A DNA stretch of 64,000 nt from a virus. Made by a program: the position numbers and the translations under genes. The first letter of the stretch is position 1. The number at the start of each line of letters is the position of its first letter. The notes below the pieces were generated by a model that was not told where the DNA came from, searched no databases, and saw only the letters and a program-made list of their open reading frames with translations. The stretch spans positions 82,478 to 146,477 of the IMG/VR virus record IMGVR_UViG_3300044629_000431; one strand, 5' to 3'. Of the stretch, positions 21,978 to 28,324 are shown piece by piece.

Positions 21978-23275
21978 TAGTTGTTATTTTTTCCGTATTT
22001 TCCAAATGTATCTCTAATCAGTTTCATAGATGTGAATGATCCATCTAGGTCAAAGTGATGACAGAGTTCTTTTATCATATATAGACCGCTTTGCTCTTCG
22101 TCAAAAACATTTTTATCAGAGTCTGTAATTTTTGGAATCTGACAGTTAATTAAATCTCCCGCTCTTAAGTTTGTATTTAACGGAACAGTCATACTTACAG
22201 TTTGAGTAAACATAATATTATATCTCATAATTGCTTGAGACTGATATTCAAATGGATTTGCATTTGGTTCCGTAGATATACCCTGATCCATTGTCCCAAT
22301 ATCAAGAACTTGAGTAATAATTCGAGTAGGAAGATTTCCTAAGTTTCCTGGTAGATTGAGGTTTGCTTGACCAAGATTTTTAGTTTTACCAACATAATTT
22401 TCTAGTTTAAATATTGCCTGACTTTGAGGAGTAAATGTTCCATCTAGAGGATTGAAAAACATTCTATAACTTGAATATGTTCCCAGTCTAAGTTTTTCTA
22501 TTAGGTTTTGGTTTCTTTCAGTTGTATAATCAATAATTGCAAAGTCATTATTTCTAAAGAAGTCAGACTCATTTGGTCCATAGTAAGTATAAGTTGCTTT
22601 TGACTCTGCCTGAATTAAATTATCAATGGCACGAAACTGAAATCCATCTTGTGTTTGGTAAAAGAAAAAACCAGCAGTTGCACTACCCGATGAATCTGGA
22701 ACTGCCTTAGACGCTAACCAAACCAATACAGTAAATGGTTTTCTTAAATTTCCAATAAAGGCATATTTGTTTGAGGTTTTATCAATTGTTCCTACTTTTG
22801 TTGCCTTAAGTTTATCATTTAATATTTGAGTTACTGCACTATCAATAGAAGTTCCTGGAGAAAACTTTCCACCGACTCTTGAAGTTTCATTTGTAATTGC
22901 TTCTCTTGAAACTAAGTGTAGTTGGAATACTTCTCGTTGACTTTGACTGATAACGTTTGAAATACTAGAAACATGAAGTAGATCGTCTGGTTTAGAAAAA
23001 TCTAGATCTGGATTTGTTGGCGAGTTTCCACCTATTTTTAACGCAAGTCTTTCGCCACCACGCAAGGGAAGACCATTATAAATTGACTGAAGTTCCCCAC
23101 TTTTACCTCTGATACTTCCACCGGTGTCCATTACAACTATTTTTGCAGTCACAGTTGGTGAGAATACATCTTCATAATAGTCAATAGAATATGTTCCAAG
23201 TCTAATGTCAACCGTCTTTGACTGATCCGTAGATTCTAGTATGAGTTTTTCGTATAGAGATCTTTTAGTTGACAT
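21977..23275 (-). CDS. Baseplate hub protein, probably gp27-like
   Basis: This 432-residue protein is beta-rich. Features include VDIRLGTYSIDYYEDVFSP near the N-terminus, FQLHLVSREAI, and a C-terminal part SGLYMIKELCHHFDLDGSF resembling hub proteins of contractile tails. Its place next to the gp5-like gene, its size (T4 gp27 is 391 residues) and its composition support a gp27-type hub ring that holds the spike. I did not recognise enough residues to prove homology. It overlaps neighbours on both sides by one base. Confidence 0.6.
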   Translation of the reverse strand: MSTKRSLYEKLILESTDQSKTVDIRLGTYSIDYYEDVFSPTVTAKIVVMDTGGSIRGKSGELQSIYNGLPLRGGERLALKIGGNSPTNPDLDFSKPDDLLHVSSISNVISQSQREVFQLHLVSREAITNETSRVGGKFSPGTSIDSAVTQILNDKLKATKVGTIDKTSNKYAFIGNLRKPFTVLVWLASKAVPDSSGSATAGFFFYQTQDGFQFRAIDNLIQAESKATYTYYGPNESDFFRNNDFAIIDYTTERNQNLIEKLRLGTYSSYRMFFNPLDGTFTPQSQAIFKLENYVGKTKNLGQANLNLPGNLGNLPTRIITQVLDIGTMDQGISTEPNANPFEYQSQAIMRYNIMFTQTVSMTVPLNTNLRAGDLINCQIPKITDSDKNVFDEEQSGLYMIKELCHHFDLDGSFTSMKLIRDTFGKYGKNNN

Positions 23276-25200
23276 TAGGTATAAGCAAGCTCCAACAACA
23301 TTCTTTGTTTGATAAGACTATTTAAGCTTGGTCCAGCAATAATAATTGGAGACCCCTCACCAGAACCGGTCATCATTGCTGGATTCTGATATAACTGTGG
23401 TGGAGCGGCAACAACCAATGTTTTTCCACTAGACTCCGGAGTAATACCATCAGATACTGTTGCTCCTTGTCTTCTTCCAGTTATTTGTGCTGGAACTGCT
23501 GTTGTGTTTCCAGGAGCATTAAAAGCAGCCTTGTTTGGTTGATTTGTGAGTAATAAAAGTGGAACATAAGGTGATGGATCAGCATCACTTCCATAACCCA
23601 TTTTTCCTTTTTGTCTTGTGTATTCAAGATGAATGTGAGGACCACTTGAACGACCACTGCTTCCAACTTGAGCAAATGACCTGCCTGCTTTCATTGTGGT
23701 AAACGCTCTCGGTTTTGCAAGCAAATGACCTAAACGAAGTTGGACTCCATATGAAGGAACCCATACATCTACAACGTGTCCATATCCACCATCATCCCAA
23801 CGATATCCAACCCACTCACAATCAACTCTCAATGCAATCCAAGTTCCAGAAGGACACGCAATATCAAGACCCAAGTGTCCAGGTCTATCTGGGTCCTTAA
23901 ATGAATCTGTGATTTGAATGAAAGGAACTCCTCTTCCAATGGATTGAGTCAATACATCTCCACTCACTAATGGTCTAGAACCAAGTCCACCAGGAGTTGC
24001 AGGTGGTGCTGGAGTTGTTTGTGCTGGTGGTGCAGTTGGTGTTCTACCTTTTAAATTTTTATAGGCATCAAGAATCTTATCCCCATGCGCCTTTCCACTA
24101 GTTCCATTTACATCTCTACTATTTGGATAATCACCACCAGTTAAATGATAAACTCCGAACTTTTGAACTAAAAAGAACTCATCAGCATTTGGGTATTTTC
24201 TTTTTATTTGAGTTAAAGTATTTTGTGCGTGAGTTGCAAATAAAGCATCTTGATCTTTTGGTGGAAAATATTTTATTAACTGTTGAGCAGCAGAACGATC
24301 TCCACTTAAAGATCTGTTTATTAAAGACTGTACTTGTGCTTTATTATTACCCGCATTTTTCAATAAAATTTGTTGGGTATCATTTCTTCCAGTCATAAAC
24401 TGGTATCTTCCCAATCCGTGACCAAGATACGTCGTTGGACCTACAGATCCATAGTTTCCTTCTGCTTTAGAAGTTGCATCAGCAAGAGCTTTTAGATTGA
24501 CTCCATAAGAAGTTCCAGTTGGACCACCTGGTGCTGATGGGGGAGTTGGTTGTCCTGTAGTTGGTGCTGGTTGCTGCTCTTCTTCACCAAAATCAAATGG
24601 TTGAACTAGAATATTAATTGCATTAAAAAAATCAACTTCCATTCTACTGAAAGTTGTTCTGACCCTCGACAACGAAGCATCGATTTGCTTACCCATATCA
24701 GAAAAATCAAAAGCAATTAAGTTACGAATAAATGCTGATGAAAGTGTTCCTATTTCTCGAAATATTGAAAGGGTATTCCCCATGAAATTAGACATCGTTC
24801 CAGATATCTTTACGATTCTTTCCCCTAGTTGTTTAGATAATGAAATAATAGTTGGTAAGTTTATAACTGCCCAACCAACCATTGTAATTGCAATGGCATC
24901 AAGTATTCTACCCAAAAATCCTTTGGTTGAGTTTGTGACTGCTCTACCTACACTTCTTATAGAACCAGTTGATCTTGATGCTTCAAATAGGTCTCTTTGT
25001 TGTTTTCTGCGAATACCGTCTTTTCTTTTTTGATAAATGCTTTGTCTTTTCGCAATAGACTGTCTTTTAAAAACAGACTGTTGTTGTAAAGTTCTTCCAA
25101 CACTTTTTGCAATACTATTACTCTGCTTTGATCTCTTTTCAAGATTATCTGTTGACTTGAACAGTTTATTCGAAGTAACTTTAATGAATGAAACGCTCAT
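23275..25200 (-). CDS. Tail hub/tape-measure-region protein with lysozyme-like and M23 peptidase domains
   Basis: This 641-residue protein begins with a basic, helical N-terminus (1-95), followed by a hydrophobic stretch (100-122) and a Pro/Gly linker (205-230). Residues ~233-355 look like a lytic transglycosylase or lysozyme fold (AEGNY with candidate catalytic Glu 247, then GRYQFMT). A second Pro-rich linker leads to an M23/LytM metallopeptidase (about 415-545) with H442xxxD446, a later GHL and HIH at 522-524. The protein could cut both glycan and peptide bonds of peptidoglycan during DNA injection. It sits where T4 has gp29 and gp28, and its N-terminus resembles the next gene. Confidence 0.75.
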   Translation of the reverse strand: MSVSFIKVTSNKLFKSTDNLEKRSKQSNSIAKSVGRTLQQQSVFKRQSIAKRQSIYQKRKDGIRRKQQRDLFEASRSTGSIRSVGRAVTNSTKGFLGRILDAIAITMVGWAVINLPTIISLSKQLGERIVKISGTMSNFMGNTLSIFREIGTLSSAFIRNLIAFDFSDMGKQIDASLSRVRTTFSRMEVDFFNAINILVQPFDFGEEEQQPAPTTGQPTPPSAPGGPTGTSYGVNLKALADATSKAEGNYGSVGPTTYLGHGLGRYQFMTGRNDTQQILLKNAGNNKAQVQSLINRSLSGDRSAAQQLIKYFPPKDQDALFATHAQNTLTQIKRKYPNADEFFLVQKFGVYHLTGGDYPNSRDVNGTSGKAHGDKILDAYKNLKGRTPTAPPAQTTPAPPATPGGLGSRPLVSGDVLTQSIGRGVPFIQITDSFKDPDRPGHLGLDIACPSGTWIALRVDCEWVGYRWDDGGYGHVVDVWVPSYGVQLRLGHLLAKPRAFTTMKAGRSFAQVGSSGRSSGPHIHLEYTRQKGKMGYGSDADPSPYVPLLLLTNQPNKAAFNAPGNTTAVPAQITGRRQGATVSDGITPESSGKTLVVAAPPQLYQNPAMMTGSGEGSPIIIAGPSLNSLIKQRMLLELAYT

Positions 25201-25201
25201 C

Positions 25202-26557
25202 TTATGCTACCACGTTATAGTTTGCCATCGAATAATACACGTAGAAATTATCAGGATTTGACGAAGAAATAGATGGAATATTATTTGCGACTGGGTTCAT
25301 GTTTGCAGGCACATCTCTTGGTTGCTGTTGCTGTCCTGCAGTCACAACGACGGTTGTTTCTGGTTCAGGAGCTGGACCAAGATTTTGTGCTCTAACTAAT
25401 GCAGGAGATGCAGTTGTTTGAACATTTGCTTGAACGGTCGCTGCAGCGTCAGACATTCCTGCCATAGTATATCTGGATGCATCTAATGCACCTTCTGGAA
25501 GATTAAATCCAGCCATTGTGCCAGAAGCTTTAGTAAAGAGATCTTGTCCTAAGTTATTAAGAGGAGAATATAAAGCAAATCCACCCAGTAGTTTAAGTGG
25601 TAATGGTAAGAATGGTATTTTTGAAAGTGCGGTTAGACCTGCTACTGCTGTTCCAGCACCCATAACTGCTTGTCCTGCAGGAACTCCAGAAGCAATATTA
25701 GCAGCAGTTCCAGCAGTTCCTTGCACAAATGGATTTTGAAACAGATTTCCAACTGACCTAAGCATCTGTCCCATTTGAGAAGATGGAGTTGCTGCTATTC
25801 CACTTGTTGGTGCTGCAGCAGGTGGTGGTGGATTTGTTGTGCCAGGACGAACAATGTTTCTAATATTATCTATTGTCCCCTGTGCAGCATTTTTTACAAC
25901 TTGAAAAGGATATTTGAATAGTCCGTTTGCAATTGCTTGCGAGATTCTAGATGTGGTTCTAGTGATTGATCCAACAATTCCTGCAAGACCCGTGTAGATA
26001 TTTCTGAATACATTTCCGGCAAGATTAAAACCTTTACCTACTTGGTTTTTAACTCCATTTAAAGCATCAGTCGTAAACTTAACTGCAGATGCAATACCAC
26101 CAATAACTTTTGGTGCTAACCATCCAGTCAATAATAAGGTAAAGAATCCCATCAAACGGGAAAGAGAAGACTGCGCTTTGACTGCAGCTTTTTGTGCTGG
26201 CGCAACAGTTGCATTCTCAATCTTTCTTTCGACTAATGCTTCTTGACCTTCCCTGAGTTGTTGCTCTGCGACTCTTCTTTCTCTTTCTTGCTCTATCGCT
26301 TCTTTCTGTCTTTCTAGAAAGGAATTTTGTGTAACCGATGCAGAAACAGTTTGCAATGACTGACTTAGACCAACCATTTGTCCGGTGATACGGTCAAGTC
26401 TAATATTCAAACCACCAACTAAATTTGAAACAGAAGACATTAACTGCTGTCTTTCTTGCTGTCTTTCTATTTCAATAGCACCACTCATCTGTCTAGGAGA
26501 AACCATTCCCCTAGCACTATTGATTCCACCTAAGATGGGTGATGCCAGTTCAGCCAT
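25202..26557 (-). CDS. Tape-measure-like or hub protein
   Basis: This 451-residue protein has a long coiled coil at about 30-115, a hydrophobic segment at about 137-155 (FFTLLLTGWLAPKVIGG), a second helical part, and an Ala/Pro-rich C-terminus. This arrangement fits a tape-measure protein packed in the tail tube. The hydrophobic segment and following helix resemble those of the 641-residue neighbour. The gene follows the gp26/gp51 chaperone pair, as tape-measure genes usually do. It overlaps the gp51 end by 8 bases. A length-determining role is inference. Confidence 0.55.
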   Translation of the reverse strand: MAELASPILGGINSARGMVSPRQMSGAIEIERQQERQQLMSSVSNLVGGLNIRLDRITGQMVGLSQSLQTVSASVTQNSFLERQKEAIEQERERRVAEQQLREGQEALVERKIENATVAPAQKAAVKAQSSLSRLMGFFTLLLTGWLAPKVIGGIASAVKFTTDALNGVKNQVGKGFNLAGNVFRNIYTGLAGIVGSITRTTSRISQAIANGLFKYPFQVVKNAAQGTIDNIRNIVRPGTTNPPPPAAAPTSGIAATPSSQMGQMLRSVGNLFQNPFVQGTAGTAANIASGVPAGQAVMGAGTAVAGLTALSKIPFLPLPLKLLGGFALYSPLNNLGQDLFTKASGTMAGFNLPEGALDASRYTMAGMSDAAATVQANVQTTASPALVRAQNLGPAPEPETTVVVTAGQQQQPRDVPANMNPVANNIPSISSSNPDNFYVYYSMANYNVVA

Positions 26558-26723
26558 TTACTTTGTTTTTAAGATTTTCTTCTTCTATGAAATTATGGAG
26601 AAGAGAAACATAAACTTCTCTTTCCCAAGGTATCATATTTTCAAGTTCTGTCAATGAGTATTTATGATGCTGAATCAAGGCAAAGTTGGTTTTGAAGTAT
26701 GACTCAAGACTTTCATGAGCCAT
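26550..26723 (-). CDS. 51: gp51-like baseplate hub assembly factor, probably made by -1 frameshift from gp26
   Basis: This 57-residue ORF begins MAHESLESYF and contains YSLTELENMIPWEREVYVSL, a motif I associate with the T-type partner of tape-measure chaperones. In T4, gene 51 follows gene 26, as here. The ATG is in the -1 frame relative to gp26. It lies inside a 12-bp RNA stem just after a T TTT TTC slippery site and shows no clear ribosome binding site. It is therefore probably expressed as a fusion with gp26 (about 299 residues); independent initiation remains possible. It overlaps the next gene by 8 bases. Confidence 0.7.
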   Translation of the reverse strand: MAHESLESYFKTNFALIQHHKYSLTELENMIPWEREVYVSLLHNFIEEENLKNKVNG

Positions 26724-26727
26724 ACTT
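26695..26727 (-). promoter_or_regulatory. RNA stem-loop downstream of the slippery site
   Basis: Bases 26716-26727 (AAGTATGGCTCA on the minus strand) pair with 26695-26706 (TGAGTCATACTT) over 12 bp with one G-U pair and a 9-base loop. The stem starts 4 bases after the heptamer and covers the gp51 ATG. Confidence 0.75.
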
Positions 26728-27448
26728 ACCCGAAAAAAGCCGTTAAACCCTCCAAGACAACATCACTCTCTACACCAGTGTTTGGATTCTTAACCGTAAG
26801 TGTGTGAGAAAGTTTTGGCATTGTTTCAAAGAACTTTTCAATTTCTTTGAATTGCTTTGAACTCAGTCCTTCTAAAAATTCTAGAAGTTCTTTTTTAGAG
26901 TAGTCGGAGGCACTCCAAGATTCTTCTTCATTATAAATCTGCTCTACGCAAGTTGAAATAAGATCAAATGTTTCATCTACAGTTACAGAACTACCATCTA
27001 CGCTAAAGTTACTCTTAATGAACTCAGTCATTGAAGGATACTTCATTCTCAAACTTAGATTATCATCTAGTTTAATATCTTTGGTGTGTTCTGAACTGAT
27101 TTGAACTTTGATTTCATCCAGAGTAATCAAAGTTGGAACTTGAGTCATTCCGTCATCAGGACAAGTAATTAAGACTTCAATATCTTCTCCAACAGACTTT
27201 CCGCGAATGTTCAAGAAAAGATATTCAATATCAAAAGTAGAAAGTTCATCTACTTTGATACCTTTGGTTAAAATACAGTTCGTAATTACGTCCTTAACCG
27301 CTCTTGCAATTTGCTTTGGATCCTCACTCTCCATTGCAATAATGAGAATCTTTTCTTCTTTGACTAGAAAAGGACGATACTTAACTTTCTTTTTATTTGA
27401 AGGCAACTCAAGTTCATAAGTTGGAGTCGCAATTGTTGGTAAAGGCAT
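26726..27448 (-). CDS. 26: Baseplate hub assembly protein gp26
   Basis: This 240-residue protein opens MPLPTIATPTYELELPS. The next part, KKVKYRPFLVKEEKILIIAMES..PKQIARAVKDVI.NC, is the signature of the T4_baseplate (gp26, PF12322) family. gp26 acts in assembly of the baseplate hub and is a likely tape-measure chaperone. The protein ends two codons after a T TTT TTC sequence at 26732-26738, followed by a strong stem-loop, so a fraction of ribosomes may continue into gp51. A CTAAATA late motif lies 26 bases upstream. Confidence 0.85.
   Translation of the reverse strand: MPLPTIATPTYELELPSNKKKVKYRPFLVKEEKILIIAMESEDPKQIARAVKDVITNCILTKGIKVDELSTFDIEYLFLNIRGKSVGEDIEVLITCPDDGMTQVPTLITLDEIKVQISSEHTKDIKLDDNLSLRMKYPSMTEFIKSNFSVDGSSVTVDETFDLISTCVEQIYNEEESWSASDYSKKELLEFLEGLSSKQFKEIEKFFETMPKLSHTLTVKNPNTGVESDVVLEGLTAFFG
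26732..26738 (-). promoter_or_regulatory. Slippery heptamer T TTT TTC (candidate -1 frameshift site)
   Basis: In the gp26 zero frame the codons are GCT TTT TTC GGG TAA. The heptamer T TTT TTC fits X XXY YYZ. After a -1 slip the frame reads CGG GTA AGT ATG, running directly into gp51. Confidence 0.75.
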
Positions 27449-27484: not shown

Positions 27485-28324
27485 TTATTGCTGAGGTCCA
27501 GACATACCAACAGAGTTCCACTGGTTTACCGGAACAATACCACTTGCATTATTTGCTTCGGTGACAGTATTATATTGATTTGCATCATAAGCACCAACTC
27601 CACCACCATAAAAACCAGGTGATACTGGGCGGAAAGATGGTCTGGTTACATTTCCAGTATCATTAGAATTTAAGAAGCTTGTCTTCTGACCAGAAACTTT
27701 GTTATTATCCGATCCAACATAAACACTATAACTGGTTGTCTTACCACAAACATACCTATCAAAGTTAAAAGATGCGGTAACTTTTAAAATATCCGAGTTT
27801 GCATATGAAACTGGAACGGAGTTCATTGCAATGGGAAACATACCATAAAAAGTGTATTCAATTTGTTGATTATAATTTCTATCAAATTTAATAATACGAG
27901 TTGCATCAGTTTTGTATTCTTGAGGATATCTCATTCTGAAAAAATATCCATCTCTTGCTGGAGATACACCAGAACCAAAAGAAATAAACTCAATCCAATG
28001 CTCTACAAACTTCAGTGCTTTATAAGATGCATCAACATAAAACTCAAGATCAATTTGAGTAAACAAACGAGTATGAGCAAACTTCTCAACCACACCCATG
28101 TAGTTTCCTGCAATATCTGCTGTTCCAAAAGAACTTCCTGGTAGAACTGCAGAACTACAGAGCAATCCCATACTTTCCCCAATGAAGTTGGCATCTAGAC
28201 CTCTATATGCTAGGTGACCTCTTAATGGAGCAGATAAACCAGCAAAGACTACTTCATAATGAGAAGTTTGTGCTAGGTTAGTTATCAGAGGTTTGATATC
28301 TGATATCCTTCTGGGAGTAGGCAC
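27485..28324 (-). CDS. Tail tube-related protein, probably gp54-like tube initiator
   Basis: This 279-residue protein starts with GTG at 28324. The segments CSSAVLPGSSFGTADIAGNYMGV, FTQIDLEFYVDASYKALKFVEHWIEFIS and MRYPQEYKTDATRIIKFD follow the tail-tube fold shared by T4 gp19, gp48 and gp54. The plus-strand block next to it holds gp48, so gp54 is the most likely assignment. It would cap the baseplate and start tube growth. A tail tube protein proper is less likely because of the extended C-terminal Gly/Asn-rich region. It has its own late promoter. Confidence 0.6.
   Translation of the reverse strand: MPTPRRISDIKPLITNLAQTSHYEVVFAGLSAPLRGHLAYRGLDANFIGESMGLLCSSAVLPGSSFGTADIAGNYMGVVEKFAHTRLFTQIDLEFYVDASYKALKFVEHWIEFISFGSGVSPARDGYFFRMRYPQEYKTDATRIIKFDRNYNQQIEYTFYGMFPIAMNSVPVSYANSDILKVTASFNFDRYVCGKTTSYSVYVGSDNNKVSGQKTSFLNSNDTGNVTRPSFRPVSPGFYGGGVGAYDANQYNTVTEANNASGIVPVNQWNSVGMSGPQQ

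Follow-up and report, generated by a model that had tools for sequence, protein, structure and literature searches.

A conserved slippery heptamer supports −1 programmed frameshifting from gp26 into the short "gp51" reading frame of a T4-like phage

In the present study, we analyzed a 64,000-nucleotide stretch of viral DNA (IMG/VR record IMGVR_UViG_3300044629_000431, positions 82,478 to 146,477), referred to below as the window. The analysis indicated, with a probability of about 93%, that a tail assembly chaperone in the window would be made in a short and a long version from one start codon, by −1 programmed ribosomal frameshifting, according to the logic of lambda G and GT. A first-pass annotation of the window had proposed such a frameshift fusing gp26 to gp51, and the comparison with relatives supported this proposal through a universal slippery heptamer, a stem kept in the near clade and the loss of the gp51 ATG elsewhere. 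From the sequence, gp26 is best read as the chaperone (TAC-N), and the short "gp51" ORF would extend it at the C-terminus. The features are collected in Table 1.

Table 1. Features of the gp26 locus in the window, with the T4 counterparts.
Feature	Position	Strand	Evidence
Tail tube protein gene, upstream	27485..28324	-	Phage_TTP_2 E 1e-20; phrog_45 tail tube E 1.5e-40
gp26-like gene, 240 aa, putative short tail assembly chaperone (TAC-N)	26726..27448	-	PF12322 E 1.2e-74; phrog_150
GGAGGG, Shine-Dalgarno-like, candidate upstream stimulator	26748..26753	-	sequence; enrichment in relatives; function putative
Slippery heptamer T TTT TTC	26732..26738	-	sequence; T TTT TTC/T in 202/202 distinct relative junctions
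−1 frame extension (putative TAC-C), 62 codons + stop	26550..26738	-	open frame; phrog_634 E 8e-28; open in untruncated relatives
Hairpin 5' arm, holding the gp51 ATG	26716..26727	-	fold z -5.3; pair counts
Hairpin 3' arm	26695..26706	-	fold z -5.3; pair counts
Tape-measure-like gene, downstream; ATG overlaps extension end	25202..26557	-	weak phrog_4200 tape measure E 0.0014; position
T4 genes 26 and 51, paralogues	T4 locus L089, 2803-3429 and 3480-4229	- and +	

At its 3' end, on the minus strand, gp26 reads GCT TTT TTC GGG TAA, so that T TTT TTC has the canonical X XXY YYZ form in the zero-frame phase. The −1 frame contained no stop from the heptamer to the stop codon at 26552-26550. The predicted slip product was 299 aa, consisting of 237 residues and a 62-residue tail starting FFRVSMAHE, and the 57-aa "gp51" ORF (ATG at 26723) was contained in this extension. 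The position and phase of the heptamer near the gp26 stop, the gp51 ORF in a −1 frame open from the slippery site and the fusion of about 299 residues were therefore all as first described.

Conservation of the heptamer in relatives had been set as a test of the proposal, and it was found to be universal in the sampled frameshift group. All 80 near relatives from IMG/VR kept T TTT TTC or T TTT TTT with an open −1 frame, and the codon before the heptamer always ended in T (GCT, TCT or AGT). A wider set, to which syn9-like, phiM12-like and Aeh1-like relatives were added, comprised 248 loci with 202 distinct junctions; T4, which has two genes, was excluded from this count, and Vibrio phage D532, one further locus fetched, had no T TTT TTC/T heptamer. 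T TTT TTC was observed in 189 of the 202 junctions and T TTT TTT in the remaining 13, preceded in every case by a T-ending codon, across seven amino acids (Ser, Ala, Asn, Asp, Thr, Gly and His). From each gene's own codon usage, about 80 of the 202 junctions would be expected to carry the heptamer, compared with the 202 observed; these counts are non-independent owing to relatedness, with protein identity spanning down to about 30%. Within the bodies of the same genes, in-frame T TTT TTY occurred at 6.6e-5 per position, or about 3 times in 45,354, and a chance origin of the heptamer was ruled out by this comparison with 202/202 at the site. The −1 frame was open for 59-75 codons in every untruncated relative of this set. 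When the scan was extended, T TTT TTC was also present in 26 additional loci of a distant group (20 distinct junctions) and in two PVA8-type Vibrio phages, and two Rhizobium-type sequences carried T TTT TTG. In six loci (L175, L201, L220, L221, L223 and L235), the zero-frame stop lay 24 nt past the heptamer, not 3, and the short form there is thus about seven residues longer.

According to the first-pass annotation, relatives in which gp51 had its own strong start would refute the frameshift; this was not what the relatives carried, the ATG often being replaced by a non-start Leu codon. Of 196 distinct relatives, 101 had Met and 91 had Leu where the window has its ATG; the ATG was swapped for CTC, CTA, CTG, CTT and other codons in 95, and no ATG, GTG or TTG occurred between the heptamer and the conserved domain in 50. 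The second half is also mis-annotated in many records. The public annotation of syn9 (L083, 3771-3914) places the start of the extension inside its conserved domain, that of Aeh1 (L086, after 3717) leaves the extension domain out, and others name a separate baseplate protein. Taken together, the 50 relatives lacking a start and these annotation cases indicated that, across the family, translation has to enter the domain from upstream. In the window's own clade, the ATG was always kept, so an additional free gp51 product may be made there.

These observations bear directly on translational coupling, according to which a separate gp51 would be produced by reinitiation at the ATG after the nearby TAA, the stem hiding the ATG until gp26 is translated. 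Such coupling would fit an ATG that lies 2 nt past the stop, within a stable stem, and is kept in the near clade, as well as the overlapping separate ORFs annotated in Rhizobium- and Vibrio-type records, but it is contradicted by the 95 relatives with a replaced ATG and the 50 with no start before the domain, and it leaves the fixed heptamer phase and the fused gp51 of T4 unexplained. Given the start-codon loss, pure coupling was rejected as the main mechanism, and we consider it very unlikely.

Frameshifting is further supported by the structure downstream of the heptamer. The stem consists of 12 pairs, including one G-U, with a 9-nt loop, and is separated from the heptamer by the 4-nt spacer GGGT, a spacing suitable for a canonical −1 frameshift. 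Its RNA fold reached -18.3 kcal/mol (z = -5.3), and none of 200 dinucleotide shuffles was as good. Every coordinate in the first description of this stem was reproduced, including the burial of the gp51 ATG (26723-26721) within the 5' arm. In the window's clade, 87.9% of stem cells were paired, compared with 28-42% for slid controls. One stem pair was seen as U-A, G-C and A-U; it joins the third base of a nearly always Ala codon (GCT, GCG or GCA, synonymous) with the middle base of a Glu, Ala or Val codon five codons downstream. Counted on a tree, the independent contrasts numbered 4 when restricted to supported branches, each of them concordant, and 10 over all branches. The two-sided covariation is suggestive, resting mainly on this one pair with too few contrasts for significance. 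The outermost pair was usually unformed in relatives, which puts the start of the stem at +11 to +12 relative to the P-site codon; for the dnaX and HIV stems, this placement has been reported to be important (PMC7282821).

Outside this clade, the stimulatory structure differed. In a sister clade (L113-L163 type loci), another hairpin, GGTCC-ATAT-GGACC, was found 10 nt past the heptamer, with compensatory changes in its GATCC/GGATC and GGTTC/GAACC versions, and many distant relatives had no clear hairpin. Across about 100 relatives, the mean folding z was lowest immediately after the heptamer. The expectation that the stem itself would be conserved was thus borne out in the near clade, where it is kept and covaries, and failed in distant relatives, which carry another hairpin or none that is clear. 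Rfam returned sub-threshold matches only, including a miRNA-like one to the hairpin, which were judged to be chance.

An upstream element, absent from the first-pass annotation, was also observed. In the window, GGAGGG ends 9 nt upstream of the heptamer. GGAGG was carried by 74 of the 202 relatives, where their own synonymous codon usage would predict 15.5, an enrichment in which relatedness is not fully corrected, and GAGG was present in 144 of the 202, mostly ending 10 nt before the heptamer. The Glu codon at the element was GAG in 135 of 177 cases, compared with 32% in the genes overall. This codon choice makes the element a candidate stimulator. In Escherichia coli dnaX, the internal Shine-Dalgarno sequence lies about 10 nt upstream of the heptamer, a spacing to which the 9 nt of the window, with its enrichment beyond codon usage, may be compared. 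The putative three-part layout and the stem placement in the window resemble those of the dnaX −1 signal, which is composed of an internal Shine-Dalgarno sequence, a slippery heptamer and a downstream hairpin (PMC5600365), whereas the dnaX heptamer is A AAA AAG.

Transcriptional slippage, in which RNA polymerase would add or drop a U in the six-T run and a mixed mRNA pool would yield the same fusion, was considered in the light of these elements. The six-T run is conserved, and, as PMC5009743 reviews, homopolymer slippage is an established alternative to frameshifting by the ribosome. Polymerase slippage needs neither a fixed codon phase nor a downstream stem; the phase is fixed here, however, and the stem and the upstream GGAGG are under selection. 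Moreover, in most cases a C ends the run after six T, which is short for efficient transcriptional slippage, and we consider this explanation extremely improbable.

With ribosomal frameshifting as the preferred reading, the identity of the two products was examined. Against PF12322, the gp26-like protein scored 251.1 bits (curated cut-off 24.5), and a profile search found only this one PF12322 gene in the window's record. A pairwise search of the record with T4 gp51 gave no match, an uninformative negative. The extension matched phrog_634 and the end of phrog_150. The gene order was tail tube, gp26, extension and tape-measure-like gene, the tube assignment being clear and the tape measure assignment weak; the usual place of tail assembly chaperones is between tail tube and tape measure. 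A 641-aa tail-region protein with an M23 peptidase domain (window 23275-25200, minus strand; Pfam E 5e-7) adjoins the tape-measure-like gene. The AlphaFold model was confident (pLDDT 87.9), and its highest-probability PDB match was the HK97 tail assembly chaperone 2ob9 (probability 0.66, rmsd 3.6 over 72 columns), although at E 1.1. No credible match to PDB sequences came from a profile search, and NCBIfam held no model for either the gp26-like part or the extension. Short and long forms with a common N-terminal domain, as in G and GT, were evident in the sequence from the open −1 extension and the fused gp51 of T4. Because of the position between tail tube and tape measure, and because T4 gp26 and gp51 are both PF12322 proteins, the genes were read as tail assembly chaperones rather than baseplate genes. 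The earlier suggestion of G/GT logic applied to a T4-type baseplate pair was accordingly upheld for the G/GT logic and set aside for the baseplate pair, gp26 itself probably being the chaperone.

The comparison with T4 extended this reading. T4 gp26 and gp51 lie on opposite strands, and T4 gp51 (249 aa) carries the extension as its last part, with domain and extension in one ORF, whereas the "gp51" of the window is the extension only. The slippery site is gone from T4 gene 26, and T4 uses two genes in place of a frameshift. A tree built from the shared domain placed the gp51 proteins in one group (100/100) and the gp26 proteins in another (82/82); the frameshift carriers stood apart, together with two heptamer-less Vibrio sequences. 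In the T4 branch, this looks like a duplication, with the short form retained by one copy and the fused long form by the other. Since the tree does not fix the root, the direction of the change, from one recoded gene to two genes, is a matter of interpretation. The gp26 relatives of Vibrio phages D532 (L088, 3628) and YC (L256/L263) were without T TTT TTY, and their extension ORF overlaps the gp26 stop as TAATG; these phages may depend on reinitiation or on some other signal, which would be a third strategy beside frameshift and gene duplication.

Several known systems resemble the window locus. In the contractile-tail phage P2, E/E' reportedly arises by −1 frameshifting on T TTT TTG, likewise between tube and tape measure (Christie and colleagues, 2002). 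In lambda, the slippery sequence is G GGA AAG, differing from the T TTT TTC of the window, and a short chaperone is similarly accompanied by a rarer, longer −1 frameshift form, encoded between tail tube and tape measure. Among T4-like phages, frameshifting is said, in the abstract of the Vladimirov study, to be seemingly conserved in several groups, with T4 using genes 26 and 51. As cited in later papers, that study (Vladimirov, Gautam & Davidson 2022, Virology 566:9-15) described poly-T −1 frameshift signals in the TAC-N genes of T4-like phages (PMC12846349, 2025) and T4-like phages with one short and one long gene and no frameshift (PRFect, PMC10885494). As far as these citations convey, the T4-like chaperones gp26 and gp51 share with the window locus the PF12322 family and the short/long logic. 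The first-pass annotation knew of no published frameshift at T4-like gp26/gp51; on the same citations, frameshifting in T4-like TAC-N genes is already known, and the window locus is a further well-supported case. Possibly new are the anatomy of the stimulators and the way in which it turns over. In the literature searched, which includes few subscription papers, neither the covarying hairpins nor the Shine-Dalgarno-like element was found described.

The results are consistent with the following mechanism. Most ribosomes would terminate at the end of gp26, yielding the 240-aa short form (TAC-N), while a minority would be held by the hairpin at the mRNA entrance and probably also, from behind, by the internal Shine-Dalgarno-like element. 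On T TTT TTC, these ribosomes would move back by one base, with both Phe tRNAs re-pairing on TTT TTT, and continued translation would yield the 299-aa long form (TAC-NC). If the roles match those of lambda gpG and gpGT (function reviewed in PMC5009743), the shared domain would form a coat on the tape measure protein, and tail tube subunits would be brought in by the extension. In these steps, the occurrence and efficiency of slippage, as well as the chaperone function, are predictions from the nucleotide and protein sequences. We suggest more tentatively that the heptamer has been frozen while its stimulators turn over, producing a lineage-specific three-part signal; this doubtful but possible reading takes in the AUG-burying hairpin, by which free TAC-C would be suppressed, the covarying hairpin of the sister clade and the Shine-Dalgarno-like element selected through Glu and Gly codons. 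In summary, the locus probably identifies the product pair that controls tail assembly in cyanophage-like myoviruses, and the sequence set makes it testable how a recoded gene, one gene with two products, became two genes in the branch of T4.
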